The position numbers were made by a program, and so were the translations under genes. From Entophlyctis helioformis (Eukaryota; Chytridiomycota; Chytridiomycetes; Chytridiales; Chytriomycetaceae), in NCBI GenBank assembly GCA_025526915.1, contig JAHLKH010000014.1, forward strand, positions 124,001 through 188,000: a DNA stretch of 64,000 nt. Reading direction: 5' to 3'. The notes beneath the pieces are model-generated. The model was not told the DNA's origin. It did no database searches and saw nothing but the letters and a program-made list of their open reading frames with translations. Positions 19,157 to 39,206 of the stretch are shown here, piece after piece (position 1 is the first letter of the stretch; the number at the start of each line of letters is the position of its first letter).

Positions 19157-19423
19157 TTGGCTTGCTGGTTGACGCTTGCTGTAGGTTGTCGTAGCTGTAG
19201 GTTGTAGATTGAAGCGAGGGGTGGGCAATAGGGCGAGGGAATGCCGGCAAACCGCCGGCAAATGGCCCGACATTCAAACAATTGCCAAGCGTTTTGGAAT
19301 TGGATTCGACCCGAGAAGCGTCGAATGCAAGCCAGCACATCACACGATGGAAGGTTTGAGTCAGCAACGAGCATGCGACGACAGGTGGGCGATGCACATC
19401 CACATGCATGAGCGGCTTACCTT

Positions 19424-19444
19424 TCATTATTATTGAAATAATGA
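19424..19444 (-). promoter_or_regulatory. Perfect inverted repeat, 8-bp stem, 5-nt loop
   Basis: tcattatt and aataatga flank attga. AT-only stem in an otherwise GC-rich neighbourhood, 43 bp beyond the Fanzor stop. It could be an RNA hairpin at the end of the Fanzor transcript or part of an element terminus. Confidence 0.5.
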
Positions 19445-19468
19445 TGTGATAAGTGACCCTATTGGTCG

Positions 19469-19486
19469 ATCAGGAGGTGCCCTGAT
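19469..19486 (-). promoter_or_regulatory. Perfect stem-loop abutting the Fanzor stop codon
   Basis: atcagg and cctgat flank a 6-nt loop; the hairpin ends at the base next to the stop codon (19489-19487). Together with the inverted repeat at 19424-19444 it gives two structured elements directly 3' of the nuclease gene, the position of omega-RNA scaffolds in TnpB/Fanzor systems. Confidence 0.5.
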
Positions 19487-21444
19487 TCAAAGTTGGTAGT
19501 CAAACAAGTCACTGTGTGGGATGCAGGTCAAGTGACTTGAGGGCAGGCTGTCTGCGTGCTGGTCGCTGCTGGATGACGGATGGACCGTGTCTTGAATGCT
19601 GCTGTACAGCACGTCTTGAATACCACAGGACGGCAGCATGATCTGGTCCCATGAGGCCACATGTGACTTGAAGGGAAATGGAGCATGACTTGCACGCTCC
19701 TGGATGTCAGCCTGCATTCTTGCAATGCCTGCAAGGTACTCTGGTGTGGCTGGATCATCACTGGCTGGCGTGTGCGTCAAGTAGAGCGGCCGGTGTCCAA
19801 AGAGCAGATGCCACAGTGCAACCATCCCGATGTTGGTGGCTCCAAGCACGTCGCGGTGGTAGACGGTCGTGCAGTCTGTGCACTTGTAGTGTCGCAGGTT
19901 GGTGCGGTTCTCATATGGGATCCGCTGCTTGCACTGTGGGCACATCTGGCTGGTCAGGTTCTCGTTGCAGCGGTAGATCTGTGTGTGTGTGTGTGTGTGT
20001 ATGATCGTGTGTCAGTTGGTGCACAGATGGATGGATGGATGGATGGATGGACAGTGTGGAATCAGACGCACATAGGCATATCCAGACGACCGTAGATGCC
20101 TGATGAGAAACCTCTCAAACACAGCGTGCCGGCCACCTTGGCCTGTAAAGTCGATGCCAAATGCCCAGACAACGGGAATGTCCTTCTCTGTTGGCTTGTC
20201 ACAGCGGCCCTGAGACGCAGCAGATGCGCGCTTGCCAGTGGTCGATCCTGCCAGATTCATGATGCCCTCAAGAGCATTTCCGCGAATAGACATGCTGTTG
20301 CTGCGCTTGGTGAACCGCTTGGCCTTGACCTTCTGTGGAATGCCATGCCATGCCATCCAGTGTGATCAGCAGGCGATCAAGCAGCTTGGCGGCCATGTCA
20401 ATGGGCATCCAGAAACAGAGAAAACGTACCCGTGCATTCAGGAATGGCGAGCAGTATGCATGGCAGCGCAGATCCCAAAAGGCTCTCTCGCCTGCTGAAA
20501 CCTTTGGATCGGCATGCTTTGCTGTCTTGAATGCAATGGCCGCCTGGATGTCGGCTGCCTTGGCATATCGATTGTTGAGCCTGGCACAAGAGGCAGGCAC
20601 TGTGAGTTGATCTGGTCAAGAGTGCGCGCGGCAGAGTCATTGCATGCATACCACCGCTGAAAGATGCACTCAGCTTGAACATGCCAGAGGAGAGCACGTA
20701 GTTGGACTCGAGCTTATACGAAAAGTCTCTGAGATTGACCAGCATGCTGGACGCGCCATACAGGTACCGCTGGCCCCAATCAAAGCTGACAACGCGAACA
20801 GTCTGGTAGCCCTTGTTGGTGAACAGGTTGTTGGCTTTGATGATGTCATGCAGTCGCTGCGAGGCGTAAAAGTTGCGCTTGCCCTGTCATGCCATGGCAT
20901 GAGTGAGGAATGTGCAATGCATGTGCACCAATGCGCGAGTTTAGCATGCAAGTGGCTTACAGGATTGGGCGTGTATGGCTTGGCGGCTGACGGGTTGGCT
21001 GGATTGGCGGCTGTGGATGGCATGTCAGTCGGTGTGGACACAAGTGCGCGTCTGGATTGGCACAGCAACTCACATGTGCCATCAAGGCCATCATCCAAGC
21101 CATCATCCAAGCCATCATCCAAGTCATCATCATCATGAGCAACCCCACGGCTGCTCGCCTGAAGACATCAGATTGGAGTATGCAGAGCAAGGCAGCAGTC
21201 AAAATCCATGTGTGCACCAAAGCATTCAAGCATGCCACATACAGCAAGGCGACTCTGGACGGTTTGTGCAAAAGTCCAACACTGTCTGGCAGATGCTGTA
21301 TCCATCAGTCTTGATGCTGCCCAGTCTGACTGCCTTGGTTGGTTGTGCTGGTGGCAGAGCATCAATCGCAGCCTGAATGTGCTTCTTGCGCTGCTCATCA
21401 TCCAGCTTGAGACAATCAGCTTTGAGCATTGCCATGGCTGTGGC
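19487..21444 (-). CDS. C-terminal part of the PIN-Fanzor fusion: Fanzor/TnpB-like RuvC nuclease with zinc ribbon
   Basis: Exons 21444-21283 (continuing exon 28292-28105 across the retroelement), 21158-21074, 21010-20961, 20883-20652, 20599-20430, 20332-20072 and 19978-19487, all in phase. GSIKTDGYSIC is the conserved TDG segment ahead of the nuclease. VRVVSFDWGQRYLYG holds the RuvC-I Asp. VVWAFGIDFTGQGG corresponds to the 'fGd.sf...G' block, and RCNENLTSQMCPQC to the 'vdEyrTs..C..C' block with an alternative catalytic Glu. A four-Cys ribbon (CPQC...CTDC) leads into YHRDVLGATNI with the RuvC-III Asp. This order is that of Fanzor, the eukaryotic relative of the RNA-guided nuclease TnpB. An acidic (DDGL)n tract lies after the TDG segment. 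Separated from its promoter and N-terminus by the chromovirus, it is probably not expressed as a full protein from this allele. Confidence 0.82.
19979..20071 (+). repeat. GT and GATG microsatellites inside the last Fanzor intron
   Basis: A (GT)10 run at 19981-20000 lies next to the acceptor of the last exon, followed by GGAT/GATG units at about 20037-20051. They are in the 93-bp intron between exons 20332-20072 and 19978-19487. Confidence 0.75.
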
Positions 21445-21449
21445 ATCTG
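21445..21449 (-). repeat. Target-site duplication (left copy)
   Basis: ATCTG on the plus strand (CAGAT on the coding strand) is repeated at 28105-28109. The two copies flank the chromovirus. Keeping one copy joins the codons aaa-gca-gat-gcc-aca, an uninterrupted reading frame of the host gene. Confidence 0.8.
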
Positions 21450-21633
21450 TGTAGCACTGGGCCTCCAGGCAGACTTGCCGGCTGGTTGCAGGGGCAGTGA
21501 GTATGCACGCGAGGAAGGGCGGGCAGACGACTGCAAGAACGGGGGCAACCAGAGCGGGGGACGCGGCCGGGCGATGTCTGTCCGGTCACGTGGGTCACGT
21601 GGATCACGTGACCGCGACCGAGCATCCGTTACA
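21450..21633 (-). repeat. 3' LTR of the chromovirus (184 bp)
   Basis: On the coding strand it begins tgtaacggatgc and ends gtgcta(ca). It matches the 5' LTR except that it has one copy rather than two of a ~47-bp block. It contains a run of gtgggtcacgtggatcacgtg-like E-box sequences (cacgtg) that are shared by both LTRs. Confidence 0.88.
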
Positions 21634-21686
21634 CTCCCCCCAGCGTAGACAGCCACTCATAAGAAAGAAGAGTGGATGAACAGCGA

Positions 21687-24600
21687 CTAAGAGGATGCAG
21701 GGGCGTTGCACACACGAGAGGCAGAAGTGCGGGCAACGATGGACGCATAGGACACAGGACGGGGAACCGTGCGCTCAGAGCGGCGAGGTGGGGCGGGATG
21801 GTTGAGAGGGGGGAGAAACGAGAGAGAGAAGGAAGGAGGAGAAGAGGGAGGAGGGAGAGGAGGGAAAGATGGAGAGAGAGAGGGAGATGCGGGTGCAGCA
21901 GGTGCGATCGGCTCGTCAGCCGGAGCAGGTGCCGCGGGCGTGGCTGCCGCTGGAGCAGGGGCCACTGGTGCAGGAGCAGGCGCAGTGCGCTTGCGGCGAG
22001 AGGGCTTGGATGCCTTGGGCTGCGTGGGAGCGGGCGCCGCGGCGGGAGCAGGAGCAGCCGGTGCAGGAGCAGCCGGAGCAGGAGCCGCGCGCGTGGGCTG
22101 AACCGGTTTGGACGCCTTGCCCTTAGGCGCTTTGGTCGGTCGAGCGTGGAACGTCTCGACGAGGTCCTGGGCCTTGCGCATGTCGGCGGCTGGGACCCAT
22201 GTGTTGTCGTCGGCTGGATAACCGACCCACTTGACCAGATACTCGATCTTGCCGCGATAAGTGCGCGAGTCAACGATCCGCTCGACCTCGTAGTTGTCCG
22301 ACGTGCCGTCGTCGGCGTGGTACTCGGGGTCCGGCCGGGAGGGCACATCCTTGCGGCCGGTGGGCGCAGACAGAGGGTCGACATACGGGCAGATCCGGTC
22401 GGCATGGAACACGTTGTGGACGCGGTGCAGCGAGGCAGGCAGCGCGAGCGTGTAGTTGAGGCCAGATTCACCAGAGTCCAGGCTGGTGATGGCAAAGGGG
22501 CCGAGCCACTTGGCGGCCGTGAGCGGCGGGCGGTGCGAGTCCGCCGGCCAGGAGATGCCCTCAGCATTGAGGAGCACCATGTCGCCGACCTTGTACGCAG
22601 GGTGACGGCGGCGACGCTTGTTTGCCTGAACGGCCATGGCTGCCTGGGCTTTGCGCCGATTCAGAATGGCCGAGTCGCGAGCAGCAGCCATGTCCAGCAG
22701 CAGGTCGCGGGCCGCGGCAGATGGTGCCAGGGCTGGCTCGGACGGGAAGGACCGCGGGTGGCGGCCAAACGCCAGGAAGAAGGGTGCAAAGCCAGACGAC
22801 GCAGACGGCGCGCAGTTGAGGCCAAAGCAGGTGGGACCGAGCAGCAGCGGCCAGTCAGAGCCGTGGTAATCGGCCGCCTTGGCGAGCGCATCCTTGATGG
22901 TGCGGATGCTGCGTTCGGCCAAGCCGTCAGTCTGCTGGTGGCGAGCCGTGCTGAGGTTCTGCTTGATCCGGGCAGCGGTGCAGAGGCTCGACCAGAAAGC
23001 CGACAACCAGCGGGCGTCGCGGTCCGAGACGATGTCGACAGGGAAGCCCTTGCCCGAGCAGACCCAGCGAGTCAGGAAGAGCTCGGCCAGCTCCTGGGCC
23101 GACGACGAGCGGCGGCACGGGAACGCGTCGCAGAGACCGGACAGGCGATCGACCACAACCAGAGCAGCATCAAACGCATCGTCTTGTCCGCCCGCGGGCA
23201 GGAACATGACGTCCATGGCGACGCTCGAGAAGCAGTCGTCCGGGATCGCGAGTGGATGCAGCAGGCCGTCAGGCCGGTGGTTGGGCGTGCGGTGGCGCTG
23301 GCACACGTCGCATGAGGCGACATAGGCAGCAATGTCCTCAGACATTCTGGGCCAGAAGTACCGGTTCGACAAGCGGCTGGTGGTCCGCTGACGTCCCTGG
23401 TGCGCACCGAAGGGAGAGTCGTGGTAGTGGGCGAGCAGATCCGCGCGCAGAGACTGCGGCACATACAAGCGGTTGCCCTTGTACCACCACGCACCATCCA
23501 AGCACTCCATGTGCACTACGACCTTGCGGTCGGCCGGCGTGGCTGACGACGGGTCAGCCTTCCAGCCAGGCAGTCTGGAGGCGAATGGGTCGGCCGGCAA
23601 CGCCGCACGCACGTCTTTCGCCCAGTCAGAGTCAGTGCGCAGATTGGCAGCACGGATCGGGACGGGCGAGCGACAGTTTGTGCAGAGAGGGGCCTTTGAG
23701 GGATCGCGGGACAGCAGATCGGCCAGCGAGTTGAGCTCGCCAGGCACGTACTCGATGGATGTATCAAACTCCTGCAGAGACAGGACCCATCGAGCCTGCC
23801 GATCCGACAGGTGGGGCTGCGTGGCCAACCAGACCAGCGCCTTGTGGTCAGTGTGCGTGACAGAGCGCACACTGGACAGCAGATGACGGAAACGCGAGAA
23901 GAACTCCACGATGGCGAGCAACTCGCGTTCGTGGGTTGGATAGTTCATCTCGGCTGGGCTAAGCTTACGTGACCAGCAGGCCACCAGCTTCTCGCCATCT
24001 GGGTGGATCTGCGACAGGTAGCCGGCAATGACGTAGTTGCTGGCATCAGTGTAGACATGCGTTTCCAGAGCCGGGTCAAAGAACCGCAGCTCGGTCGCTT
24101 TCAGCACTGCCTGTCGCAGGTCTTCCACAGCCTGCTTTTGAGCAGGGCCCCACTCCCACTTGGCATTCTTGGCTAGTAGCTTGTAAAGTGGCAGACACAT
24201 GGTGGCGTACGCCTTTGCAGGGTTCGGCCCACCAATGAATGACTTTAACCACACAAGCTTGCCAAGCCAAGTTGCCAGAGTGGTTGTGTTTGAGATGTGT
24301 GGCGCTGCTGCCATGTCCTGCAAGTGCTTTGGCGCAATGGAATAACCAGTGGGCGAAAGCACGTGACCGCAGAACTCAATGTCCTGCTGCAGGATCATGC
24401 ACTTGGACGGCTTAATGTACAATTGAGCCTCCAGTAGCAGCTTGAGAACAGTGCGTAGGTGTTTGATATGCTCCTTGTACGTCGCGCTGTAGATGTAGAT
24501 GTCATCCATGTACACCGAGACGCACGTGCCCAGCAGCTCATTGAGCGTCGACTGGATGGCCTGTGTAAACACAGCCGGAGCATTGGTCAGCCCAAAAGGC

Positions 24601-27600
24601 ATGACCGTGAACTCAAAGTGACCAAACTGGGTGGAGAACGCAGTTTTCCACTGGTCCTCCGCCTTAACACGAATGTTAAGGAAGCCCTCGCGGATGTCAA
24701 GCATCGAGCGGAAGGGTTTGTTTGCCAAGTTATCACGGAGGGTCTCAATCTCCGGGATCGCACTGTGGAACTTCACCGAGATGTTGTTCAAGCCGCGGTA
24801 GTCGATGACCAACCGCAGCGAACCATCCTTTTTGCGGACAAAGAGCGTGCCGGCGCCCAAAGGCGATGACGAGCGGCGGATGTAACCTTTGGTGTACCAC
24901 TCGTCTAGCTGCTTCTTGAGCGCTATGGATGCATCCTGGTTCAGTCTCTTGAGGCCACGACGCGGCGGCAGCTGCGCATCCTTAATGAAAGGGATCGCAA
25001 TCTCGAACTCCGAGTCGTGCGCACGGCCTTGCGGCGGGCAGCAGACCTCGTAGTACTCGATGAATGCCTTCTGCGTCTCCTCGTCCGGGCAGACTGGAAG
25101 GTAGGGGTACTTCTCCTTCAGCTCGTCCGGGGTGAGGCCGTTTGCAGCCGCGACGCGAAGGCGCGCATCAGCAGCTGCCTCACGGTCCTCAGGCAGGTCA
25201 TCCACATAGACCAGCTCCGCATACTCGTCAGGATGGGCGAGGATGTCCGACATGGTAACCACGATGTCAGAGTGCGGCCGGTTGTGGGGTGCAGCAGACG
25301 GCGGAGCGTCTTCGTGCTGCCAGATGTGGTGCACATCGGGGCGCGACTCGGTTGAGAAGCGGAAAACGCCGCGACGGAAGTTGAATGACGCCTTCGCGGT
25401 GGTGCGCAGCCACGGCATGCCCAGGATGACATCATCCACACCGTCATAGACAAGGAACCGCACTCTGCCAACAGCATCTGTTCTGTCAGCGAGCGTGAGG
25501 TAGACCTCTGAATCTAGCCTCTGCAAGTTGCCGTTGGCAAACTCGAGAGTCACCGCCTGCCGGGTGAACGGCCGGGCAGCGGCGAGCAGGCCGTTGGCAT
25601 CCAACCAACGGCGAGCCACTAGATTCGCGCTGCTGCCAGTGTCCACCAGGACGCTGGCGCTGCGATTGTCTAAGAAGACAGGGAAGGTGCACCGGTTCTC
25701 TGTGATGGGCTTCACAGGAGCCAGGTGCCCCTCCTTCAGTCGCGACGGCGGCAACACAGGACAAACAGGGTGATCAGGGGCCACAGAGGGCAACCTTTTA
25801 TTCGCATCAGCCACAACTGGGCTACTCTTCTTCATCTGCGTCGCTGTACTGGGTCCCGTCGTCTGAGAACGACGAGACGGTTTCGAGCGACCGCGAGCCG
25901 GAGCCATTGCTGGTGCGCCGTCGTCACGGGCAGGGACCGATGGAGGTTCGGTGTCAGCATTGGGCTTACGCACGGCCGCAGGCTTAGCCGCCGAAGCGTG
26001 CTTAGCCGCAGGAGCAGGAGGAGCCAGAGGGGGCGAGCGAACGTACCCGGGTGCCTTGGCCTTTGCCGCGATGCGCCCGACCTTAGAGTGGGGCGGGCGC
26101 TGGCTAGGCGATCGGCTGGCATGGTCGGCTGTCGCAGCGGGCGAGGCGGCCTTACGCGTTTCAGATGCGCTGTTGTTGCCAGAGGGCGCAGGAGTGGCCT
26201 TGGGCGATGAGGAGCTCCAAGAACGCGGCGACGCGGCGGCTGTCTTGCCAGAGCTGGGCGTCGACTTGGCGTCTTGGGCCTTGTGAGCGTTGGCGAGGGC
26301 AGTGGCAATTGCAATGTCACGCTCGTGTTCCTCCGCGCCTGAGTGTCGCTTGATGAACGCCTCGCGGAGGGCCGAGTAGGTCGTGAGCGAATCCCACGCC
26401 TCGGGCTTGTCCTTGATGCGCGTGCGGAGGAATGTGAGCCTCTCCGCCTCCGTAAGCTGGGCGTCATCGAACAGCCGCTCGGCTGCATGCAGCCAATCCT
26501 GCGGGACACGGCCATGGCACTCAGTGGGCGCAAAGTCACGCTCCAGCTTCTGGCGAGCCTGGCCTCGGACTCGTTCCGGGGCACTGTGGCGCGACACGAG
26601 GTCCGCAAGGAAGTGGGCGAGCGTCGGGGGCGGATCGTCTGTCTTGAGCGACTTGAACCAGGCGGTGGCGAATACACGGGCATCGCCTGTGAGGAGCGTC
26701 AAGAGGGTTGCGCCAATGTCGCTCAGGGGGATCGCGTCCACGCCGGTCGCCTTGCAGGCGCTCTTGTAGGCCATCTCAATGGCAAGGACGAACGGCTCGA
26801 GGCTCTCGCGAGTGGCGTTCCAGTTGACCGTCAGCTGCGAGCCCTTGACCATGACAAGGCCGTTGAACGGCACCTGTCTGCCAAGCGATTCCGAGAACAC
26901 CTTGGCCAAGTTTGGTGCACGGGCTTCCACGGCTGCTGGCAGGCGAGCATCCACCGAGGATCCCGACGCGTGGGCCGGACGCGAGTCCACCGAGGACCCA
27001 AGCGCCTGGACCGGATGCTCCGCAAGCAGGGTCGCCGTGGCTGAGGCCTGCGCCAACGCAGCGTTTGCCGTTTTGGTGGCCTTGGCGACGGCATCCGAGA
27101 AGACCTGCTCCAGTGCAATCACGGATTCCGACGTGTTGGCGACGCTCTTCTGCAGGCCCCGTATGGCCTCTGAGTTGGCCTCGACAGAGTCAAAGAGTGC
27201 CACCAGGCGTTGATGGTGGAGCTGGGTGGCGTTGGAGTAGGCCTCAGCCTGCCTGGCGGCCATGTCGCGGTCCGACTGCAGCTGAAGCCGCAGATCGTCG
27301 ATGGCAGCGTGGGCGGCGGCCGCAGATGATGTGGTCGCCTTGAGTGCTCGGCTGGTGTCTGACGCCCCCGTGTGGAGGCGCACGAGTTCGTAGAACATGT
27401 GCTCTCCAGTGATGGTGAAGGGCCGCCTGGGGGCACTCCCAGCACCGGGCTGGACGGCCGGCGTGCTGGAGAGGAACGCCTCTTGGCGCCGACCAGCGTC
27501 TGCGTCGTGGCGGCCCAACAGATCGGCCGAGGAGTGGCGGCGCGCTGGTGAGGCGCCAAAAGACGCGCCCAGAGCAGAGTCGGCCATCAAGACGGACGAC

Positions 27601-27758
27601 GTACCCACAGGGTCGGGGCGGTGCTGGGACCTTGGGGGGGTGGCGTCGATGAACGAGCGGGCCGTATCGAACGAGGCCTCGCCGAGGAGGTCCTGGTCAG
27701 TGCCCAAGGGGGCGGCGGCCGAGCGAGCCGCGGGCTGGGGCGAGCGCTCGACGGCCAT
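21687..27758 (-). CDS. Gag-Pol polyprotein of the chromovirus (2,023 aa)
   Basis: ATG at 27758, stop at 21687; one ORF with no frameshift. Order: a Gag region with long coiled-coil-like helices; an aspartic protease (VLVDTGSSANLV); reverse transcriptase (VIDYRGLNN, VMPFGLTNAPAVF, and YMDD in SVYMDDIYIYS); RNase H (HVYTDASNY); integrase with an HHCC zinc finger (H..H...C..C before QRHRTPNHR) and a DDE core (AMDVMFL, IVSDRDARW, LAERSIRTI); and a C-terminal chromodomain (EVERIVDSRTYRGKIEYLVK, WVGYPADDNTWVP) followed by an Ala/Pro tail. The chromodomain places it among chromoviruses, which target chromatin marks on integration. Gag and Pol in one frame mean the protein ratio must be set by processing rather than frameshifting. 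Confidence 0.95.
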   Translation of the reverse strand: MAVERSPQPAARSAAAPLGTDQDLLGEASFDTARSFIDATPPRSQHRPDPVGTSSVLMADSALGASFGASPARRHSSADLLGRHDADAGRRQEAFLSSTPAVQPGAGSAPRRPFTITGEHMFYELVRLHTGASDTSRALKATTSSAAAAHAAIDDLRLQLQSDRDMAARQAEAYSNATQLHHQRLVALFDSVEANSEAIRGLQKSVANTSESVIALEQVFSDAVAKATKTANAALAQASATATLLAEHPVQALGSSVDSRPAHASGSSVDARLPAAVEARAPNLAKVFSESLGRQVPFNGLVMVKGSQLTVNWNATRESLEPFVLAIEMAYKSACKATGVDAIPLSDIGATLLTLLTGDARVFATAWFKSLKTDDPPPTLAHFLADLVSRHSAPERVRGQARQKLERDFAPTECHGRVPQDWLHAAERLFDDAQLTEAERLTFLRTRIKDKPEAWDSLTTYSALREAFIKRHSGAEEHERDIAIATALANAHKAQDAKSTPSSGKTAAASPRSWSSSSPKATPAPSGNNSASETRKAASPAATADHASRSPSQRPPHSKVGRIAAKAKAPGYVRSPPLAPPAPAAKHASAAKPAAVRKPNADTEPPSVPARDDGAPAMAPARGRSKPSRRSQTTGPSTATQMKKSSPVVADANKRLPSVAPDHPVCPVLPPSRLKEGHLAPVKPITENRCTFPVFLDNRSASVLVDTGSSANLVARRWLDANGLLAAARPFTRQAVTLEFANGNLQRLDSEVYLTLADRTDAVGRVRFLVYDGVDDVILGMPWLRTTAKASFNFRRGVFRFSTESRPDVHHIWQHEDAPPSAAPHNRPHSDIVVTMSDILAHPDEYAELVYVDDLPEDREAAADARLRVAAANGLTPDELKEKYPYLPVCPDEETQKAFIEYYEVCCPPQGRAHDSEFEIAIPFIKDAQLPPRRGLKRLNQDASIALKKQLDEWYTKGYIRRSSSPLGAGTLFVRKKDGSLRLVIDYRGLNNISVKFHSAIPEIETLRDNLANKPFRSMLDIREGFLNIRVKAEDQWKTAFSTQFGHFEFTVMPFGLTNAPAVFTQAIQSTLNELLGTCVSVYMDDIYIYSATYKEHIKHLRTVLKLLLEAQLYIKPSKCMILQQDIEFCGHVLSPTGYSIAPKHLQDMAAAPHISNTTTLATWLGKLVWLKSFIGGPNPAKAYATMCLPLYKLLAKNAKWEWGPAQKQAVEDLRQAVLKATELRFFDPALETHVYTDASNYVIAGYLSQIHPDGEKLVACWSRKLSPAEMNYPTHERELLAIVEFFSRFRHLLSSVRSVTHTDHKALVWLATQPHLSDRQARWVLSLQEFDTSIEYVPGELNSLADLLSRDPSKAPLCTNCRSPVPIRAANLRTDSDWAKDVRAALPADPFASRLPGWKADPSSATPADRKVVVHMECLDGAWWYKGNRLYVPQSLRADLLAHYHDSPFGAHQGRQRTTSRLSNRYFWPRMSEDIAAYVASCDVCQRHRTPNHRPDGLLHPLAIPDDCFSSVAMDVMFLPAGGQDDAFDAALVVVDRLSGLCDAFPCRRSSSAQELAELFLTRWVCSGKGFPVDIVSDRDARWLSAFWSSLCTAARIKQNLSTARHQQTDGLAERSIRTIKDALAKAADYHGSDWPLLLGPTCFGLNCAPSASSGFAPFFLAFGRHPRSFPSEPALAPSAAARDLLLDMAAARDSAILNRRKAQAAMAVQANKRRRRHPAYKVGDMVLLNAEGISWPADSHRPPLTAAKWLGPFAITSLDSGESGLNYTLALPASLHRVHNVFHADRICPYVDPLSAPTGRKDVPSRPDPEYHADDGTSDNYEVERIVDSRTYRGKIEYLVKWVGYPADDNTWVPAADMRKAQDLVETFHARPTKAPKGKASKPVQPTRAAPAPAAPAPAAPAPAAAPAPTQPKASKPSRRKRTAPAPAPVAPAPAAATPAAPAPADEPIAPAAPASPSLSPSFPPLPPPSSPPSFSLSFLPPLNHPAPPRRSERTVPRPVSYASIVARTSASRVCNAPASS

Positions 27759-27849
27759 CCAAAGGAAAAAAAACGGAAAAACGACGGAAAAATCGATCGA
27801 CGGCGGCGGGGAACGGCGGCCGACGGCGTCGAGAGGGCGGTTCTTGCTG

Positions 27850-28104
27850 TAGCACTGGGCCTCCAGGCAGACTTGCCGGCTGGTTGCAGGGGCAGTGAGT
27901 ATGCACGCGAGGAAGGGCGGGCAGACGACTTCATTGAGACATAAGCACGGACCTGGTTGCAGGGGCAGTGAGTATGCACGCGAGGAAGGGCGGGCAGACG
28001 ACTGCAAGAACGGGGGCAACCAGAGCGGGGGACGCGGCCGGGCGATGTCTGTCCGGTCACGTGGGTCACGTGGATCACGTGACCGCGACCGAGCATCCGT
28101 TACA
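27850..28104 (-). repeat. 5' LTR of the chromovirus (255 bp, with 71-bp internal duplication)
   Basis: Same ends as the 3' LTR but 71 bp longer. A block beginning ggttgcaggggcagtgag and ending cgggcagacgact is present twice, separated by about 24 bp starting tcattgagac. The 3' LTR has the block once. Confidence 0.88.
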
Positions 28105-28109
28105 ATCTG
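28105..28109 (-). repeat. Target-site duplication (right copy)
   Basis: ATCTG on the plus strand, identical to 21445-21449, directly after the tgtaac end of the 5' LTR (read on the minus strand). Confidence 0.8.
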
Positions 28110-31100
28110 CTTTAGCCTGGGCATTAGCTGTGTCCATCTCTGTCTTGGCCTCAGCTGGCGTTTGGAAGCGACGTGTATCCGAGGCAAGTCCAGGGAGGAG
28201 GATGTCGAGGATGGCCAGCTCCTTGCTTTTGCTGAAGGCCTTCTCAATTGGGTCATTTGGCAACTTAAGGGCCAACTCGGCATCATTGTAGCCTTGGAAC
28301 ACAGTGCAGTGTTAGCATCAAATGGCATTGGCATGGCATAGACAAATGTGACCTACCAAGTGCAGCCAGGAGCTGCTCTCTCAATGCTTGGAGGACAGCA
28401 TTGTCCTTGGTGGGTACACGATCCTTCTTTGTCCCCATCACAGCCCAAAAGAGGGTGGCCTCTGTGATGAGGACAAAGGGGTCACAGCTGGCTGGCTCTG
28501 GGCATAACTTGATGGCTGTGCCACCTGCAAGATCACAGAGCTCCTTGAACTTACAAATGTCTGATGTTGACGTGCTGCGCACAATCGCCTGAATCGGATG
28601 CAGCTCTTGTGGGATCTCGATGGTGTCCCCATCCTGTGTGGCTGGTGGTGTGGCCTGCAAGGCATCTGTGGCAGCAGTCTTGTCCTTTGGCCTCTCGGAT
28701 GTGCTGCCATCAGTGGCCAGCAGCAGCTGTGATGCAGTCCGCTTGAGACTCAGGGCAGGAGGAGCGACATCCTGGGCAGCGTCCTGGGTGGCGTCCACAC
28801 TCTCTTGGTTGTTGATGGGCCCCTTGCACCTTGCTCTCTTGCGTGTCGGTAGGCTGGATGCAGTGTCCATGGCAGCAGTGCGCTTGGCAACCTTGGTGGT
28901 CTTGACTGGCTTGAACATGGCATTGACCCATGCCGCAATCTGCTCGGAAGTTGCAGTGGGCATCGCACGGTGGGCCGCAATCGACACAAGCTTCGACCGG
29001 CTTGAGATAAAGTGTGTAGCAAGTGTGCTGCTCACCTCCCTTGCCAGGTTGCTGAAGATCTGGTCGGTCGCACGCCCGCACAAGGTGTTGACAAGCCTGT
29101 ATGGCACAGCTGCCTGCTGTGTGTCGGCCTGCTGTGCATCGGCTGGGAGCAAGCTTGCCCACCACATGTCTAGATGCCGCGCACGAGTCTGCTGCTTCTT
29201 GGCCGGTCGACGTGCGCCTGCCTTCATCTCGGCCTTCCGTGTGGTGGTCCGCATTGCGCCTGCCTGTTGCGCATCGCCAGTGTCCATGTCAGCCTTGATC
29301 GTGTCGGCTGGTGGTGCAGCTTGGTCGGTCATGCTGGCCGGCGTCCAGCTGCGGTGGATCATGAGCTGCATAACCGTAACAAGCCATGCGTTGAGCTTGA
29401 GCATATCCACCCGTGGCTTGGCCATCTGCTCGCCTGTAAGGACAAATGAGAGGTGCCGCAGGATGCAGGCTACAGATGTCTGGCCAGCAGACTTGCTGGT
29501 GATGAGCATCGACAGCAAGTCATTGGGTGTTGGCACTGCTGGTGCTGCTGGTGCTGCTGGTGCTGCTGGTGCTGCTGGTGCTGCTGGTGCTGCTGGTGCT
29601 GCTGGGGCTGCTGGGGCTGCTGGCTGCTTGGGCATCTTTTGCATCTTTGGCGTCTTGTGCGTCTTTGGCTTGTCAGGCTTCTCAAAGAGACAAAGCTTGA
29701 GTGTCGTTCCCACTGATAGTCGCACTGGTGACCCAAACAAAGGGAGCTTGCCCTTGCAACTGTACTGACTTGGGCCGTACATCGCATGCGCAGTAATGTC
29801 TGTCTTGAGGATGCATGGGCCGGCCATGAGTGCGTCGCCAATGTCATCGAGGTCCTTGAGGCTATCAAGACTCAGAAAGCAATGCCCGCTCTGCTCTCCA
29901 TGGGTCCACTCGTATATGTGGTACATCGGGGGAAGCGGCATGTCTGGGTTCAGATCAAGAAGCTCCTCCAGGATGGCGCCAATTACAATGAGTCCAGCAT
30001 GGCGTATGCCGACAGTGAACGAGTAGATCCGCGCGATGATGTCCTCGATGAGTTGGCAGCGTGTCCAACCCATCGGCAACCTGCTTGCATGAACACCAAA
30101 GACTGGGGCACTCTGCAGGTGACTTGACAACATGTCCTGCACACCATGCCAGCCTGCAAGTCAGTACATGCAAAGCCATGCAGGCAGGCAGGCAGGCAGA
30201 ATGGCAGGCAGGCAGGCAGAATGGCAGGCAGAATGGCAATCCTGCCACTTACCTTCAGAAGCACTCGCATGCCAGGATGGTCAGGCATGTCCTCTCCATG
30301 TTGATCCGGCACATCCTCATTGTGTTGATCAGATGCATTCCCCTTGGCTTGTTGCACTTTGCCATTGATGGCTGCAGCGAGTGTCATGAACCATCCTGTG
30401 ATTGTGCGGCCCAGCTTTTCGAGCTGCAGATGCAGTGCAAATCGACTCCCAGCAACCCATCTGTGGCATAACATGCATGTCAGCAAGCATCTTCAAGTAT
30501 TGCAGTGTGGCATACACAACTTACGTCTTGTCGCTCTCTGATGCAGCTGTTTCAGTCTGGCGGTCTTGCCGGCGTGCACTCTCCTTGTTGTTGTCAATGG
30601 TCTTGTTGATCACAGCATCTGCGGCTTCCTTTTTGCGGTTCTTCTCGTACGTGGCCTTCCTGGTTGCTGAGAGTAGGAGTTGTGCCTGTTGAGGTCCAAT
30701 GCACCATCAGCATTGTGTGCAATATGTCCAAAATCACAAACAGTGCATGTGGACTGACCGTTGTCTTGTTGTCAGCAGATAGATCAACATACAAGACCTT
30801 GCTGGCAGCCACGCGAGCATGCTCATTGTGGGAGGGGCCAACTGGAGTGGATGCATCCAACTCAGCCTGTTGGATGTAAAATCAGTGACTGTGCAAAGTC
30901 AACACATCCATACACAGCAAGCAAAGTTGAAGACATACAGCAGATCGCTTGAGGATTGATTCCAGAATGGCGACTGCATCTTCCCACTTCTTGCCAAGTG
31001 TTGACAGATGGAGATCAGGCAGGCCGTGATCCATGGGATGTGTCAGACGTTCCAGCCACTCCAAAGCCTTGATCTGTATGTCCACAAATTTGGAGAGCTT

Positions 31101-33654
31101 TTTCAAAGAGATGCCTGTCTGGTGGTGGTGTCGACTCTTGCATCCACCTTCCAAAAGAGTGGTGCATTTAGACAAATGTGCTGTGAGTACAGAGTGTGGC
31201 ATCATCCAACAGCAGTCTCAAAGTACCTGGTGTTGCTGTCTTCCTGAATGGTGGATATGCAAGCTTGTTGAACTGTCTGCGCAGCTTTGATGCAACATCC
31301 TGTCCAACAAGCAGTGGATGAGTGGGATGTTTCAAGGCAAGGAATGCACATGCATCCAGTCATGCAACAACATACATGTCCATCACGAATGATCTTATTT
31401 CCTTCGTTGAACTCAGTGTGCATTTCTGCTGCAGGAGACTTCTTGCGTACAATCCCAATGAGCTCTGCACTGGCTGTCTTGCTGATCTCTGCCAGAACAT
31501 CGCGGCCAGTGAATCCGTCGGTGTTGCAGGCGACGCGATCTGCTGCATGTAACAGAACACAGTCAACAGCAACTGGACATCCCTTGACTTGTTCCAGCAA
31601 AGTGTTGAGTCGCTTGGTGTTGATGATGCCTTCGACTTGCTGCTTGACATCTTCCTGGGAGAGATGGACAACATCGGGGCCTTGCTTGCCTTGCCGGGCC
31701 TTGGGGTGAACAAGAACACAGTCGCGATGTAGCTGGCAGCTGCATTGCAATCCAATCAAACACAGAATGCCAAGTTAGTCATACAACACACACCAAGCAA
31801 TGTCATGCATGTGTACCTTGTGGTGGTTGTGCCAACAGCTGTGCTGCTGTCAATGGCATGTAGGGATGGACAGTCAGTAGAGTGTTGTGCATGCAAATGC
31901 ATCTGTGCCACAATGCCATGACCAGTCAAACAAAATCTTGCCTCTGCGCTGGTGCATCACCAGATGGGCTGCTGTGACTGGATGGGGATGTGGTCTCACC
32001 AACAGAGCTTCCTGATTCATCGTGGTGGACAAAAACGCCAAAGGCGTTCAGGAAGCTCTTGGTGAGAGCCACACCACCATCCAGCAACAACAGATCCTTG
32101 CAGTATGCATCCTTGATTGCATTTGCAAATGCAACTGCCTTGTCGCGGTCATGGAGGTGGGCACAGTAGTCAACTGGCTTGATGCCTGCCTTTCTGGCTG
32201 CGGCCTCGACAAACTTGTTGATGAACTTGACAGCGGCAGGTAGACCTTCCATGTCATGGGATTGGCAATGTGCATTAGTCATCATCACAACATGGATGGC
32301 AAGTAAGAGCAGAGTCAAGCAATGAACATACCTCGCCCGTAGCAATCATGATAGTCATTCTTGGCCATGGAGGCGGCCAGCTGACATGCCAGGGGGAAGT
32401 TGTACAACCGTAAGGCTGCTGCAGTAGATGCAGCGCCCCTGTAGTTGTACAATCGGACCTGGCTGACACGTCCCTTCTGCATGCGTGTCAGGATGACAGG
32501 GCAGCATCCAGTACAATGCACAGCCAGGTCCGAGTCCCCCGCAATGACAGCCATCAGCATGCCATTGCTGTGGGATGCAGGTTGTCAGCCATTGATCATA
32601 AACAACAGATACCATGGTGATGAATACCTTGGCTCGCGTGCATAGAGGGCAGCCTTGCGGGCGATGCAGACATCAGACTCGTTGTCACACTGATGGACAG
32701 TGTGTTGCGATGATGGGCCGAGGATTGCCGCGATTGCCTCAGCAATGTTCTTCTTGTCTGACCATGTAAGAGTGAAGGAGCCAAGTAGTGCCTTTCTCTC
32801 CTTCCTGTAGCATCAACTAAAAGTTAGAATCATGTGTATGAAGCACAAAGAGGCAGACATACCAAGACAAACGTCCAGACCGTCCATGCTTGCGGCGCCA
32901 GTAGATGGATCGCTGGATGGCGGCCACTGATTGAAGTACTTGAAGAGCACGGCTGCTATATGCGCGCTTGATTCCCGTCTCGGCAAGCCTGCCATTGACA
33001 TGGAACTGTAGGACCCGCCCGTCACCGACCGACTTGAGAAACGTCTTGAGAACAGGTGCAACGATTGTCACCCACTCATCAACAGACGACGGCCGGTGGA
33101 AAGCGGCCAGCCCACGTAGCGGTCCGTAGAAGATGCTCAGTGCATCAACATGGATGACACTGGATGCACTCATGTGTGGTTGCAGCAGTGGGTGGTGGTC
33201 GTGGCGTTGTGGTGGTGGCGTTGTGGTGGTGGTGGTGGCAGTTGTGGTGGTGGCGGTTGTGGTGGTGGTGGTGGCAGCGGATACAGTCGTCGGAAAGCTG
33301 GTGGCCGCAGAGGTGCTGGTGCTGTCAGAAGCGACGGCAGATGGGGTAGAAGAGGTGGTGGTGGCAGCAGAGGAGGCAGTGGCAACCGTAGGTGTTGAAA
33401 CGGCGATGCTGGCAGCTGTGGCTGCCTTGGATATAAGTCCAGCATGATGGTGGCTGCAGCAGCGACGGTCGAGGAGTTGCACTGGTGTCATCCACAGCGA
33501 TGTCGTCGACGTCCATGTCGTCGATGGCAGGGTCGCCGTGTTGCTTGACCTCTCCAAGTACCGTGGAAAGTGCGTCGGACAAGCTTGCACCATCGCCGAA
33601 CACGATGACGTAGCCAAACTCCTTGAGGAGTCGCAGCCAGTCAGGGACTCCCAT
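28105..33654 (-). CDS. N-terminal part of the PIN-Fanzor fusion: XPG/FEN-like nuclease plus middle region
   Basis: Exons 33654-33550 (alternative donor 33562), 33425-32863, 32804-32628, 32567-32332, 32245-32000, 31943-31817, 31739-31376, 31299-31227, 31180-30939, 30866-30759, 30685-30525, 30460-30253, 30136-28357 and 28292-28105; every internal phase agrees. The start MGVPDWLRLL resembles the XPG/FEN N-terminus. Later blocks carry the PIN/FEN acidic residues: VIHVDALSIFYG, HQCDNESDVCIARKA, VIAGDSDLAVH and AKNDYHDCYGRGLPAA (the helix-hairpin entry of FEN proteins). A Thr-rich linker precedes the PIN core. The middle ~900 residues contain a Lys/Ala-rich (AAP)n tract and the CGRATDQIFSNLAREV and LATHFISSRSKLVS helices that resemble the N-terminal region of Fanzor proteins. 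Translation would now enter the LTR and stop after about nine extra residues, giving a ~1,535-residue protein without the RuvC domain. Confidence 0.75.
29530..29625 (-). repeat. 9-bp coding minisatellite encoding (Ala-Ala-Pro)n
   Basis: About ten copies of gctgctggt (plus strand) read on the coding strand as an uninterrupted (AAP)n tract inside the 1,780-nt exon, following a Lys/Met-rich stretch. Such arrays change length easily and mark a flexible linker. Confidence 0.8.
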
Positions 33655-34231
33655 GCTGCAGCAAGCGGTGTTGAGAGCGTCTGTGTGTGTGTGTGTGTGC
33701 AAGGGTTGGTGGTCAGTATCAGCATGCAGAGCATGCAGGGTGTGCAAGGACATGCAACAGCCAGCAAGCAGAGACTTACGAGCTGGCTTGCTGGGCAAGA
33801 GGGCCGAGCGGTTGTGGGATGGGCAAGGTTCAATGAGCGGCGGCGGTCGTGCTGGCCTGTGTGCACTTGGCTGGCTGGGCGAGTGGTGGTGTCGTTGAAC
33901 GAGAGGGCAGGCAGCGAGCAGCGGCGATGTGCTTGCTGCTGTTGGCTGGCTGGCTGAGCGGCAAGCGAGAGAGGTCGGTGGTGCGACGAGCGACGACGAG
34001 CAGGCCTGTGTGTGTGCACAGGCGGCGTGGATGTCGGTGGTGCCAAGCAGCAAGCAGCGTTGCTGATGCAACAGCAGCTGCAGAACGAGAGCAGCAGAGA
34101 AAACAGGCAAGTTTGAGCAAGTCGCCGTTGCTGGTTTGCTGATGGCGGCGGTGGGCAGCGTCGTACGGCACTCGGTGCCGCCGTTGCTGTGCTTGCATCG
34201 CGCAGTGTCTGAACCTTGCAAGGGCTCTCTC
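33655..34231 (-). promoter_or_regulatory. 5' leader of the PIN-Fanzor gene with a probable leader intron
   Basis: No convincing coding exon precedes the ATG at 33654. A good donor (gtaagt, around 33775 on the minus strand) and the acceptor gcttgctgcag immediately before the ATG suggest an intron in the 5' untranslated region that contains a TG repeat (33681-33700). The long open frames in this stretch are Ser/Cys/His-rich shadows. Confidence 0.5.
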
Positions 34232-34315
34232 GATCGACCAATCACAGTGATCCCACCAAGATTGACCAATCACAGCGATTCCATCAAGATCGACCAATCA
34301 CAGCGATCCCACCAC
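34232..34315. promoter_or_regulatory. Three 28-bp tandem repeats, each with a CCAAT box, between divergent genes
   Basis: Units 34232-34259, 34260-34287 and 34288-34315 share gat(c/t)gaccaatcacag followed by (c/t)gat(c/t)cca(c/t)caa. CCAAT motifs fall at exact 28-bp spacing. They lie between the minus-strand PIN-Fanzor gene and the plus-strand gene starting at 34349. CCAAT boxes are bound by the HAP/NF-Y complex, so this is a likely shared bidirectional promoter. Confidence 0.7.
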
Positions 34316-34348
34316 CAGTGGCAGTGGCGCTCTGGCAACAGAGTTGGA

Positions 34349-36096
34349 ATGGACGAGCAACAGCCACCACATGCCGCTGTGCACCAGCAGGACGACATGG
34401 ACGCAGCAGCCACCACAGAGCCAGCTCCCAGTCAAGCAGACCCACAGGTCATCGACCCAACAGGGAAGTTTCTAGACTACGGCTTGGGCTTCCACTGCGA
34501 CGATGGTTCATTTGAAGCATGACACTGGTGGACAAGAAGAACCAAATACATTCGCTGCTGCCGCTCGTCAAGCTCACAGATGGCCCGCGTAAAGGCGTCA
34601 TATGCGTCCAAGTGTCTCGCCTCCCCTTGGTTCTGACAAGCTTCATGCCAAGACGACTTGACAACAACGTCCCTGCTTTTGCCATCAAGGTGAAACTTGG
34701 CGGCCGTGAAGTATAGGTGGTGCCTCTTGACAGCATCGACAAGCTTCTCGTCATGCTCCCATGCCTCGAAGATCCCAGCAATCCTGACATCGTGATGCAT
34801 GGCATTGCATCCTGATCCCTCGTTCAAGAGCAGCGTCCTCCAACTCCTTGAGCACTATGCAAAGTACCGCGATCATCACAAGGTAAGTCTGATCACCCAC
34901 AACGCACAATAAGCAGTGTAATCACTCACTGACTTCCAAACCTCACACGACAGTTTGGCGAGACAAGCGTCTTTGCAGCAGCCAACAGCCAGAATCTGGG
35001 CATGCTTGCGACACTTGATCCAACAGCAGAGTTTGCAGTCCCAGAAGGAGCGACCTTTACGCACCTGTATGGTCGCGCGCTTACGTCCTATCCCGTAGAG
35101 CAAGTAAGCTTACAAGCATGCAGACACACACTCTCCTTGACAATCAGCACTAACCATTGCATGCAACACAGCTGTTTAACGCGTGGCGAGACAGTTTACG
35201 ACGGACTGGAAAGGGCCGGAATGACAAGTCAGACCTGGAAGAGTTCATGTCAGTCACACGACAGATGCAACTCATCTTCAAGATCAGGTGGATGGACGTT
35301 GAGCAGCGCGGATTCCTTGTTGAGCCATCCTCCAAATGCCGGTAGGATATTCTCATAGGATGTGTATGCACTGATCGCACAGCAGACTGACTGCACAAAC
35401 AGCACATACAAAACCTACAACAAATCCAACAACATCTTTGTGTGGGGATCCATCAGCAATCCCATCCAGAAAGAGTATGCTGTGTATACAAAGGCAGCCA
35501 GGACAGAGGTTGACATGAGTGGGCAGAATTGCCGCAGGCATTCTGTGTGTATCGCCTCGACAGTTCTCAAAGTCAGACCAATCCAAGCGCGATGCCTTAC
35601 AGTAGCTCGATGATACGCAGCAGCTGGACGATACGCCGAGTGATCCATCCACGTCCTTGTTGGTGAGCCGTCTGCCTCTTGTGCGATGGCTGTCAACAGT
35701 TGCGACTCTGTTGACACTGTGTGCCTTGACAATCTCGAGACGGCAGGACCTTGCGGCGAGCCTGGACAGCCAACCGTTGCTGTAGCTGCCACGCCAACAG
35801 CCAGCCGCCAAAGAGCGTCAAGCAAGCGGAAGAGAGCCAGCAGCAGATGCCAGTGCGTCTGTGCGGCTGTGACGACGGTCGTTCGGACATTGCAGCAGGC
35901 CGCCTCAGCAGCACGCACAAGTGCGCCGCCTGGACGCAGAGGGACAGCAGCTGCAACAGGCAATGGCAGGACAGTTCTTCGTGACACTACCAACACGCAG
36001 ACAACTGCTGCCCCTGGGACAGGCTCGGCAGACCACAAGCCAGCGCCAAAGCGTCCACGGCTTGAGAAGGCATCGCCTGCAGGCTGCTCAGAGTGA
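34349..36096 (+). pseudogene. Unknown protein gene divergent to PIN-Fanzor, frame broken in several places
   Basis: I do not recognise the family. Start MDEQQPPHAAV at 34349 leads into an acidic segment. A core can be followed through frame changes: LVDKKNQIHSLLPLVKLTDG, VVPLDSIDKLLVMLPCLEDP, SVLQLLEHYAKYRDHHK, an exon at about 34954-35103 (GETSVFAAANSQNLGMLATL...SYPVEQ), an exon at about 35172-35342 (LFNAWRDSLRRTGKG...VEPSSKC), an exon from about 35402 (TYKTYNKSNNIFVWGSISN) and a basic tail to 36096 (SSKRKRASSR, KPAPKRPRLEK) with NLS-like runs. Introns with gtaagt and gtaagc donors are visible. Breaks: frame changes near 34520, 34820 and 35515, and an in-frame TAG at about 34714. Either a decaying gene or single-base sequence errors. 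Position suggests a partner of the PIN-Fanzor gene. Confidence 0.45.
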
Positions 36097-36354
36097 CTGG
36101 GGAATTCGGACAAGAATATGAAATTGGATTCAAAAAGATTGGAAATTGGATGCCAAATTGAACAAAATTCGAGGCAAACCAGCCGACCAATCAGGTGCCG
36201 GCGCAGGGTTCTCTATGGGAACGAAATCAATTACCCCCTCCGTTGAAGCTTGTTGTTGGTTAAACCGTCGACTTTTGGTTTGACAAAGTCAGACCCGCTC
36301 GGACCACTCGGACCACTCGGACGTGCAGCGACAGATCACGCACAGCAGCAGGCC
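36097..36354. promoter_or_regulatory. AT-rich segment and promoter of the SRC1/HEH gene
   Basis: 258 bp with an abrupt drop in GC. attgg (reverse CCAAT) occurs three times within 36123-36150 and a CCAAT at about 36187. The three ggaccactcg-like repeats (36299-36325) precede the ATG. This is where the AT-richer island ends and GC-rich housekeeping DNA resumes. Confidence 0.5.
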
Positions 36355-39206
36355 ATGAACGACGCACCTGCAACGCCCGGCGCAAGCGGCGGCGAGCTGC
36401 CCGACTACCTGGCGCCAGACTTTGCGCCCGCAAAGGCCACCATCATGCAGCTGGTGCGCATCCTGACCAAGCACGACGTCGAGCTGCCCCCACCCGCCAG
36501 CGCAAGGAAGAGTACGTGCGGCTGTTCGAGTCGGCCATTGCCGCCAACAGGGACGTGCTGCTGCGTGCAAGGGCCCGCCCCACGCCAAAGCCCCCAAAGA
36601 ACTCGGTCTTTGCCGTGCCGTCCAACCCGCCCGCGGTGCCCACGCCTCTGCGCCCAAGCTCGGCCTCCAACGTGCCTGCTCCGTCGTCGGCGTCGTCGTC
36701 GGCGCCGTTTTCTGTCAGCGGTGCCGGTGGGTCTGGTGTCGAGGCAGCGGCCGACACCAAGAAACGCATCCGTGCAACCCCGGCTCGCCAGGCTCCCGGC
36801 GGCTTTGTTGCACCCGACGCTGCAGACAATCCGTTCCTGGTGCCCTCGGTGCACAGCGGCGGCCCGTCGTCAACCGATGCCGATCTCGACACGGACGAGC
36901 ATACCGCCGCAACAGCCGGCACGCCTCGCAAGCGTGTGGCCGTCAAGACGCCGCGTCGCTCGGCATCCCTCGCGGCTGTGTCAGGCTCGGCAAGACCTGC
37001 CGAGACGGACGATGATCAAGTGTTTTCCGACGAGAATCCGTTCCAGGCCGCATCGCCCACCCGTGCGCCAGTGACGCTTGCCTCCGCCGCGTCGTCGTCC
37101 ACGCCGCTCAAGTCGGTGCGCTCCAAGTCGGCCGCCAAGGCAAAGGGCTCGGTCGCCTTTGATCGCTCGGCCCTGTTGCAGCCTGCCATGCCAGAGTTTG
37201 GCGACCCCAACGACGCGACCATCGATCTGTCGTTTGCCGACACGGCCCACGGGTCTCCGTCTGCCTTTTCGCCTGCTGGATCGTCGCGCACGCTCACGGA
37301 GATCATGAACAGCATGGATGCTGCTCGGGAGCAGTCGGCCGTGCCTGTGCCTGAACGCCGTGTTGCTAGTGCGTCTGTCAGGCGTCGTCCGGCAGCCAAG
37401 AGTGCGTCGTCGTCTGCGTCCGACCACGAGACGGCATCGGCATCTGCCCGCAAACCGGCCGTCGTTACCCTTGATCGTGCTGCCACTCTCACGACTGCAC
37501 CTGTTCAGGCTCCAGGATCGCCGCTTCCCGCCCGCTTACAGTCCAGGGCGTCGCAGCGTGCCTCGGCAGCTCCTCGCCGCAAGCTTGTGCGCACCAGCAA
37601 TGGCATCATCACGGCATCGTCGACTATCCAACGCGACCTGTCCCTTGCACTCACGACTCTCGGTCTTGCTGCCACGGCCCTGTTTGTGCACTGGCTTGTG
37701 TTCTTGCACCCGTACCTGACCTACTGTGCGAACGGCTCTGCCTCGCTTGATGGCCAAGATGCAAAGAGTGTCCATGACCCGTACAGCCCCCATGCGTCGA
37801 TCCATGCCAAATGGAACCCGCTTGCGTATGTGCTGCCAACGTGCATCAGCTGCCCAGACTACGCAGTGTGCTCTGCGCGCAACGTGACTGCATGCACGGA
37901 CGAGCACATTCTCAAGCCCAGCCTGCTGGCACCCGTGTTCGGCTATGGCCCCGACGCCTTTTTCCCGCTCGCCCAGCCTCTTTGCGCGCCAGACACCGAA
38001 CGGCTTGAAAAGGAAGCGCGTCGCCAGCAGCGCGTAACGGGTCTCATCAGCGTGCTGGACGACATGGTGCGCAACTGGATTGGACAGGCACAGTGCGGCG
38101 AGGTGCAGACTGGACCCGAGTTATACTGGGCCTGGTCGTCGGCAAGCAATGGACAGAGACGCCTCATTGGCATGCCGCTCTCGCTGGCACGATCGCAGCT
38201 GCGCGCAGCTGTGCCCAAGAAGTGGAGCGACGCGACGTTTGACGAGCTGTGGAGCGCCGTGTTTTCGGTCGTGGCTACCAACCACGAGGGTGCTGGCTAC
38301 GGCGCATGGAAGGCAAGCCAGCATGGATCTGTTGCACCGAGTGGAGACCGTGGCGGCGACATGTCTCAACGCCAAGTGCCCGCGGTGCCTCTGTACACGG
38401 TCTTAGACGAGTCGACCCGCCAGAACCGTCTGCTGGTCTCCATCCACCCGCCAGTCATGTCGGTCTCGTGCCGCGTGCGTCGCGCCGCCTGGCGCTTCAC
38501 TGTCGACTATGCACCCCACCTTGCGCTGAGCTGCGCCGCCATCATTGCTGCAGTCATTGCATACACGTTACGACTCCAGGCCGAGCAGGAGCGGCGCATC
38601 GTGTCCATCATTGTGGGCGACGTTCTCGACATGGTGCATGCCGAATCGGACTCGCACCACACGGACCCTGTGCGGCACCCGGCACCAGGCCTCTCCATCG
38701 CCAACCTGCACGACCATCTCATGCCAAGCTCGGTGAGCTCAGGCAACGCCGCGTCGACCGAGGCCGATGGCACGGACGAAGGCACCGGCACGCCCTACCA
38801 GACGTTTGCGGATGCGGGCGGACACACGGTCTGGGTTATTGGCGACACCGCCACGCGCAAACGCGTCTGGGCGGCCGTTTGCAAGGAGATGGGCAAGACG
38901 AGCACGGTGCGCAAGACGACGATGGAGGTGCGCGGCCAGCCACAGGATCTGTGGATGTGGGTAGCCAGCCATGCGCTGAGCCCGCGGAAACCCAAGGGTG
39001 TCTCTGCTGCGTCTGCTGCTGCCTCTGCTACTCCTGGACGATCGGTGTCTGGTTTGGGCTCGGGTGATGTACCCAAACGGCCCGTGTTTAGCGAGAGCGG
39101 TCCCAGCACTGGCGTTCCTCACGGAATCTTTGCGTTTGATAAGTCGGTCCAAGCCAAGGGCGACAGTGGTAGCAACACGGATCGATCTAAAGCGATCATT
39201 TTCTGA
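36355..39206 (+). CDS. SRC1: Inner nuclear membrane protein, Src1/Heh (MAN1-Src1 C-terminal domain), one apparent frameshift
   Basis: ATG at 36355; the frame changes once near 36492 and then runs to TGA at 39206. With one base restored it is 950 residues. Near residue 25 lies a LEM/HeH-type helix pair (TIMQLVRILTKHDVELPPP then RKEEYVRLFESAI), which is split exactly by the frame break. A long disordered Ser/Pro/Ala-rich nucleoplasmic part follows, then membrane helix 1 (LALTTLGLAATALFVHWLVF), a lumenal loop with CISCPDYAVC, membrane helix 2 (LALSCAAIIAAVIAYTL) and a nucleoplasmic winged-helix-like MSC end (VWAAVCKEMGKTSTVRK...QDLWMWVASHAL). Src1/Heh proteins tether chromatin and recruit ESCRT to the nuclear envelope. 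No intron is seen. Confidence 0.88.

Follow-up and report, generated by a model that had tools for sequence, protein, structure and literature searches.

Does a single gene of the chytrid fungus Entophlyctis helioformis encode both a 5'-nuclease of the FEN/XPG kind and a nuclease of the TnpB/Fanzor kind, or do two genes lie side by side? The question is raised by a locus on the minus strand of a 64,000-nucleotide stretch of its 29.6-Mb assembly (contig C14, positions 124001-188000; hereafter the window), for which a sequence-only reading had proposed one gene at 19487..33654 fusing the two halves. Both halves do lie within that interval, and the real unit is larger: a multi-copy transposon at 19216-36240. 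From comparison of its copies, the fusion of both halves in one protein is most likely. We assign a probability of roughly 0.6 to the reading in which the family encodes a single protein, acting by the mechanism proposed below, and in which the window copy is dead. The predicted order is an N-terminal FEN/XPG-like 5'-nuclease (the FEN half), several hundred residues in which no domain is recognised, and, at the C-terminus, a RuvC nuclease with a zinc ribbon, the FEN half being followed by what we call the Fanzor half.

Recurrence of both halves across the genome

A genome query that ran from the FEN half into the beginning of the Fanzor half gave 199 matches (the best 85 of 492 candidates were scored), from which 20 sister regions were fetched, chosen by their match to the FEN half and the first Fanzor-half exon; ten query pieces were mapped onto each. 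The FEN pieces lie upstream of the first Fanzor-half exon in all 20 copies, with L039 lacking the first FEN piece and L043 giving a weak, out-of-order match to the second. As the loci were preselected by the query, the RuvC and zinc-ribbon pieces are a more independent test than this order, and they lie downstream in 16 of the 20 (not in L031, L035, L037 and L044).

Genome-wide, at least 147 places matched the FEN half and at least 150 the zinc ribbon (the best 150 of 256 candidates scored). For at least 80 of the 147 listed FEN places a zinc ribbon follows on the same strand at a distance of 3.5-14 kb, in 59 cases 5.4-6.1 kb away; it lies on the other strand for three listed FEN places and upstream for none. 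Seventy of the 150 listed zinc-ribbon places have no listed FEN partner. In two of these, inspected over 1.5 kb each, no FEN motif was found by pattern at L057 and L058 holds retroelement-like sequence. Elsewhere, at L003 (1904-3010), a Fanzor-like zinc-ribbon copy adjoins the host's own FEN1-like gene.

The junction between the halves

The last FEN-half exon of the window (31942..32245, minus strand, as are all exons given here) ends in AG and is followed by a GC donor. The junction intron (31740..31941, 202 nt, GCAAGA...TGCAG), placed by alignment and fitted by the protein sequence of P0002, leads into the first exon of the Fanzor half (31376..31739). In the alignment of 21 sequences, GC or GT stands after AG at the column of 31941 without exception: GCAAG in 19, GTATG in L038 and L043. 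The acceptor TGCAG is present in 20 of the 21, and the shared intron measures 202-224 nt with all three remainders modulo 3 represented. The spliced phase, assessed by a stop test over 60 codons before and 110 after the junction, is stop-free in 18 sequences, the exceptions being L039, L040 and L041; one-base gaps occur in the last FEN exon of L030 (two), L036, L041 and L043. The sequence-only reading had instead placed the junction at a 57-bp intron (31999-31944), the GTGAGA donor of which is carried by only five of the 21 sequences, the window's own subfamily; it was for this reason set aside as the family junction, the shared intron starting at 31941.

The NCBI protein P0002 crosses from the FEN half to the Fanzor half as splicing at this junction predicts, judging from its protein sequence. 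Among five representatives, the first 42 codons of the Fanzor half show a ratio of nonsynonymous to synonymous divergence (dN/dS) of 0.48 and no stops, and the same codons give 1.19 (18 stops) and 1.11 (15 stops) in the shifted frames; on this comparison, the start of the Fanzor half is constrained as coding in the correct frame only. A comparative gene finder, run on ten copies, linked the two halves through the shared GC donor in eight; the models of L038 and L041 use a GT donor instead. It excludes stops by construction and chooses splice sites freely, and its models (about 1,600-1,930 residues, with the zinc ribbon in all ten, but with the RuvC-I block not intact in L025, L026 and L038) are approximate, most of all around the RuvC exons. 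As evidence for the architecture these models count for less, which slightly lowers our rating of it.

Several observations weigh against a single protein. An in-frame stop directly follows the donor in 18 of the 21 sequences (31926 in the window); the NCBI protein P0001 ends in ..KKRQVLA at this conserved stop; and a possible in-phase 30-nt micro-exon within the junction intron (31817-31846) supplies the Fanzor half with an in-frame ATG in seven of the 21. These would fit two adjacent genes, one for a FEN-like protein that terminates after about 350 residues, at 31926, and another for the Fanzor-like protein, and GC donors are generally rare. Such an arrangement does not account well for the GT that replaces GC precisely at the donor position of L038 and L043, the common acceptor, the matching phase or the read-through of P0002. 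Moreover, the Fanzor half gains no in-frame ATG by direct upstream extension in any of the 21 sequences and none through the micro-exon in 14. We therefore regard two genes as unlikely, while two products through alternative splicing are possible. The fusion of a FEN/XPG-like N-terminus to a TnpB/Fanzor-like C-terminus appears quite probable from these alignments. The proposal of one gene thus survives as the best-supported reading, by comparison of copies and with another splice junction, and not from the damaged window copy itself.

The C-terminal RuvC and zinc-ribbon half

The blocks quoted for both halves in the sequence-only reading do lie on the minus strand in the order given. Past its first exon, the Fanzor half of the window comprises a gene-finder exon transferred from the L032 model (31227..31299), a stretch (30253..30979) with four short and approximate gene-finder exons (30939-30979, 30759-30797, 30525-30685 and 30253-30460), and a long middle exon (28357..30136), in which no Pfam family exceeds its cut-off, CDC48_2 staying below at E 0.0087. 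The middle region of the L038 and L041 models holds long KRAAAKAARDAERAAAK-type repeats, which we take to resemble histone H1 tails. There follow the TDGYSIC exon in two parts (5' part 28106..28292, 3' part 21243..21448), the RuvC-I exon with SFDWG (20652..20883), a gene-finder exon, possibly with an unspliced intron, that separates RuvC-I from the zinc ribbon (20072..20580), and the exon with the NENLTS glutamate, the C4 zinc ribbon and HRD (19740..19978).

This last exon matches PF07282 (Cas12f1-like_TNB) at 38.5 bits in the window; all four members of alignment A2 carry the family, at 2e-11 and 44.2 bits against a cut-off of 26.3. The spacing of D, E and HRD is as in Fanzor in all four models measured, the models being approximate. 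In the same four, the distance from D to TS is 209-245 and RD lies five residues past the last Cys, in agreement with the motif described for Fanzor in 2013 (PMC3627910). The alternative glutamate of a 2023 fingerprint (PMC10711439) is likewise present in NENLTSQMC, with seven positions from E to C in all four. The DPG of that fingerprint is replaced by DWG at RuvC-I in all four rows of A2, a point that counts against the Fanzor identity proposed earlier, which thus agrees with the 2013 motif and departs from the DPG fingerprint; therefore, we name the half TnpB/Fanzor-like and not canonical Fanzor. All eight matches in a protein search with this half are E. helioformis proteins. In the PDB, neither sequence nor profile searches with this half retrieved a nuclease. 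NCBIfam gave one weak and unrelated match, and a full-length protein search found nothing at E <= 0.001.

The FEN half and its proposed role

The FEN half of the window begins with an open frame from the ATG at 33654 (MGVPDWLRLLKEFG..), its probable first exon (33325..33654, 3' end approximate), the counterpart of which in copy L027, MGITGFGQ.., continues without an intron. It is followed by exons with HVDALS and FHVNG (32863..33159, 5' splice site assumed), NESDVCIA (32628..32804), and AGDSDLAVH and KNDYHDCYGRG (32332..32567). Across alignment A7 the acidic motifs HVD, HVDG, E-x-D, D-S-D and N/T-D-Y/F occur in FEN order, and we assume for them the roles that such motifs have in the active site. 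A profile of the FEN half aligned to a FEN1/XPG set with a score of 20.4, reached by none of 60 shuffles, with the last three acidic motifs in register over 132 columns; a first comparison with FEN1 was not significant (E 0.24), with the motifs in register over 246 columns. A low-confidence structure model, for which a PIN/FEN fold is a candidate, gave a weak match to FEN1/EXO1/XPG/XRN 5'-nucleases.

On the opposite side, no Pfam XPG_N/XPG_I family or relative rises above its cut-off in the FEN half; XPG_I_2 (three of six members, best 0.033; 0.012 for P0002), 5_3_exonuc_N and NYN_YacP appear below threshold. No FEN relative came up in the PDB, whether by sequence or by profile, the FEN profile had no match in viral contigs, and all six matches in a protein search are E. 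helioformis proteins. Profile searches of the two halves thus bore out the RuvC half through PF07282 and left the FEN half sub-threshold; the claimed FEN/XPG identity is upheld by motif order, sub-threshold profile matches and the low-confidence model, with nothing above a Pfam cut-off. Taken together, the N-terminal half is very probably a FEN-like nuclease. Its dN/dS is 0.07-0.33 with no in-frame stops (11 pairs, 10 copies), and 0.07-0.23 within subfamilies at a synonymous divergence (dS) of 0.04-0.12; by these ratios it is under purifying selection.

How might two such nucleases act in one chain? Tentatively, we propose three steps. First, the RuvC half would cut sites without the element, directed by a guide RNA derived from the conserved 3' end of the element together with its adjoining flank. 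The FEN-like half would then trim 5' ends or flaps to prevent simple re-ligation, leaving the break to be repaired with the element-bearing sister as template; in this way the element would be maintained and would spread. The candidate guide-RNA region (19216..19475) is conserved in sequence with almost no covariation (z -1.0), and its role as the source of the guide is inferred.

Two other roles for the FEN-like half were considered. As the sequence-only reading conjectured alongside flap processing, it may mature the guide RNA rather than process DNA: PIN-like domains often cut RNA, and both activities would then share one chain. We consider this, too, unlikely. Somewhat less likely still, the half could be a catalytically idle FEN-fold module used for binding, for which Asteroid/Mkt1-type proteins offer a precedent. 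The weak XPG_I_2 match in three of the six members, a family that we associate with Asteroid, would agree with an idle module, in opposition to the retention of the acidic positions in nearly all A7 rows and the low dN/dS. Tentatively, we favor a DNA-processing nuclease joined to the guided one.

The state of the window copy

The sequence-only reading had described an intact in-phase frame in the window, which does not hold. An LTR (long terminal repeat) retrotransposon (21449..28105, minus strand), absent from L030 and L032, lies inside the gene and splits the TDGYS exon, and the RuvC-I exon is one base shorter than in all four sisters that cover it (L032, L030, L027 and L033). In addition, the FEN acidic motif reads FHVNG in the window and FHVDG in the five other rows of alignment A1; seven of the eight A7 rows have FHVDG, the eighth FQVNG. 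Given the insertion, the one-base deletion and the change of D to N, the window copy is dead. Over the parts compared, there are sisters free of these defects. The retrotransposon is flanked by a duplicated 5-bp ATCTG and is young, as a 152-nt stretch is identical between its two LTRs; from its motifs, we presume it to carry a chromodomain and to be of the Gypsy type.

That the whole family is a relic, its shared frame historical and no copy active, would suit the dead window copy and the six copies with a one-base gap or a stop close to the junction (L030, L036, L039, L040, L041 and L043), and is improbable in view of the within-subfamily FEN dN/dS quoted above (0.07-0.23) and the absence of an internal stop from 147 of the at least 150 listed zinc-ribbon copies.

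A mosaic transposable element

The sister copies' match delimits the whole element, later retrotransposon included, at 19216..36240 (minus strand), or about 10 kb once the retrotransposon is subtracted. It is bounded by terminal inverted repeats, CCCCTC on the left (36235..36240) and GAGGGG on the right (19216..19221), and beyond these by a candidate target-site duplication, CGTTGAAGC on the left (36241..36249), identical at seven of nine positions to GATTGAAGC on the right (19207..19215). Seven flank pairs were compared: around the C178 copy the 9-bp duplication is exact (GCTTACTCT); the seven-of-nine duplication occurs in the window and in C331, at the same site; C1, C2 and C130 have no 9-bp duplication, nor was one visible by eye in C98. 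The C331 copy (L030/L054) is 96-98% identical to the window, flanks on both sides included. Because this match extends past the element, it is no independent insertion; on sequence identity it is the other haplotype or a segmental duplication.

Between subfamilies, dS is about 1.0-1.9 in the FEN exons versus 0.09-0.18 in the RuvC-II/zinc exon, the dN/dS of the zinc exon being 0.05-0.70 with wide scatter at these low distances. Identity is 90-98% in pieces of the 5' region (34290..36234, minus strand) and 76-92% at the right end. As 19216-21329 and 34290-36240 are far more alike between subfamilies than the FEN exons, a constant module seems to have undergone recombination or gene conversion. 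By these comparisons the family is a mosaic: the catalytic end and the termini vary little, and the N-terminal part diverges.

In the two tested parts of the 5' region no frame is both open and constrained (seven of nine and three of four copies were long enough), and no transposase family, MuDR included, came over its cut-off in the five translated pieces searched. No second protein-coding gene having been recognised in the parts tested, movement of the element would fall either to the fusion protein as well or to a transposase supplied in trans. Further, and unlikely as it stands, the element could be self-contained, with one polypeptide that both cuts under RNA guidance and processes the ends as the sole enzyme of mobility, its N-terminus diversifying while the catalytic module and the ends stay constant. 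Next to the element, on the plus strand, lies an open frame of 980 codons (36264-39206), perhaps a host gene.

Relation to known systems

E. helioformis has been sequenced from culture, and because copies are many and some little diverged (FEN dS 0.04-0.12), expression, guide RNAs and mobility are directly testable. Should the reading prove true, the fact that a guided nuclease occurs naturally fused to one that processes ends would hint at the events that follow a guided cut, and the fusion would be a ready two-nuclease tool. In the portions available of PMC10432273 and PMC3627910, the role of Fanzor for transposons is called unknown or mysterious. Searches of PMC showed no description of a FEN-Fanzor fusion among the matches listed; the words 'Fanzor flap endonuclease homologs' in the accessible part of PMC11071296 are applied to viral genes.

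The FEN half has the order of its acidic motifs in common with the FEN1/EXO1/XPG/XRN 5'-nucleases, the profile and structure matches being weak, and differs from them in having no match over a curated cut-off and in being fused to a TnpB-like nuclease.

The comparisons that follow draw on the parts available of the papers cited. Fanzor1 was described as cargo of eukaryotic transposons (Bao and Jurka 2013, PMC3627910), with 9-bp duplications at the MuDR-like Fanzor1 elements of Rhizopus, Phycomyces and Mucor. The Entophlyctis family resembles it as transposon cargo and in the motif D-X(125,275)-[TS][TS]XX-C4 zinc finger-X(5,50)-RD; unlike Fanzor1, its nuclease stands behind a FEN-like nuclease and a long middle of unrecognised domain. 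With the TnpB-family proteins that carry an alternative glutamate and D-hydrophobic-G (PMC10711439), it shares D-W-G and an E six residues before the first CxxC, the window's zinc ribbon being CxxC x16 CxxC x6 D; in contrast to that pattern, it is eukaryotic and intron-rich, and its D-to-E distance exceeds 120-160. Finally, SpuFz1 of Spizellomyces punctatus (PMC10432273) is, like the Entophlyctis family, fungal and multi-copy. No transposase was found between the repeats of the SpuFz1 elements, and the SpuFz1 locus of about 2.1 kb has a single open reading frame, for which the available text mentions no FEN-like part.

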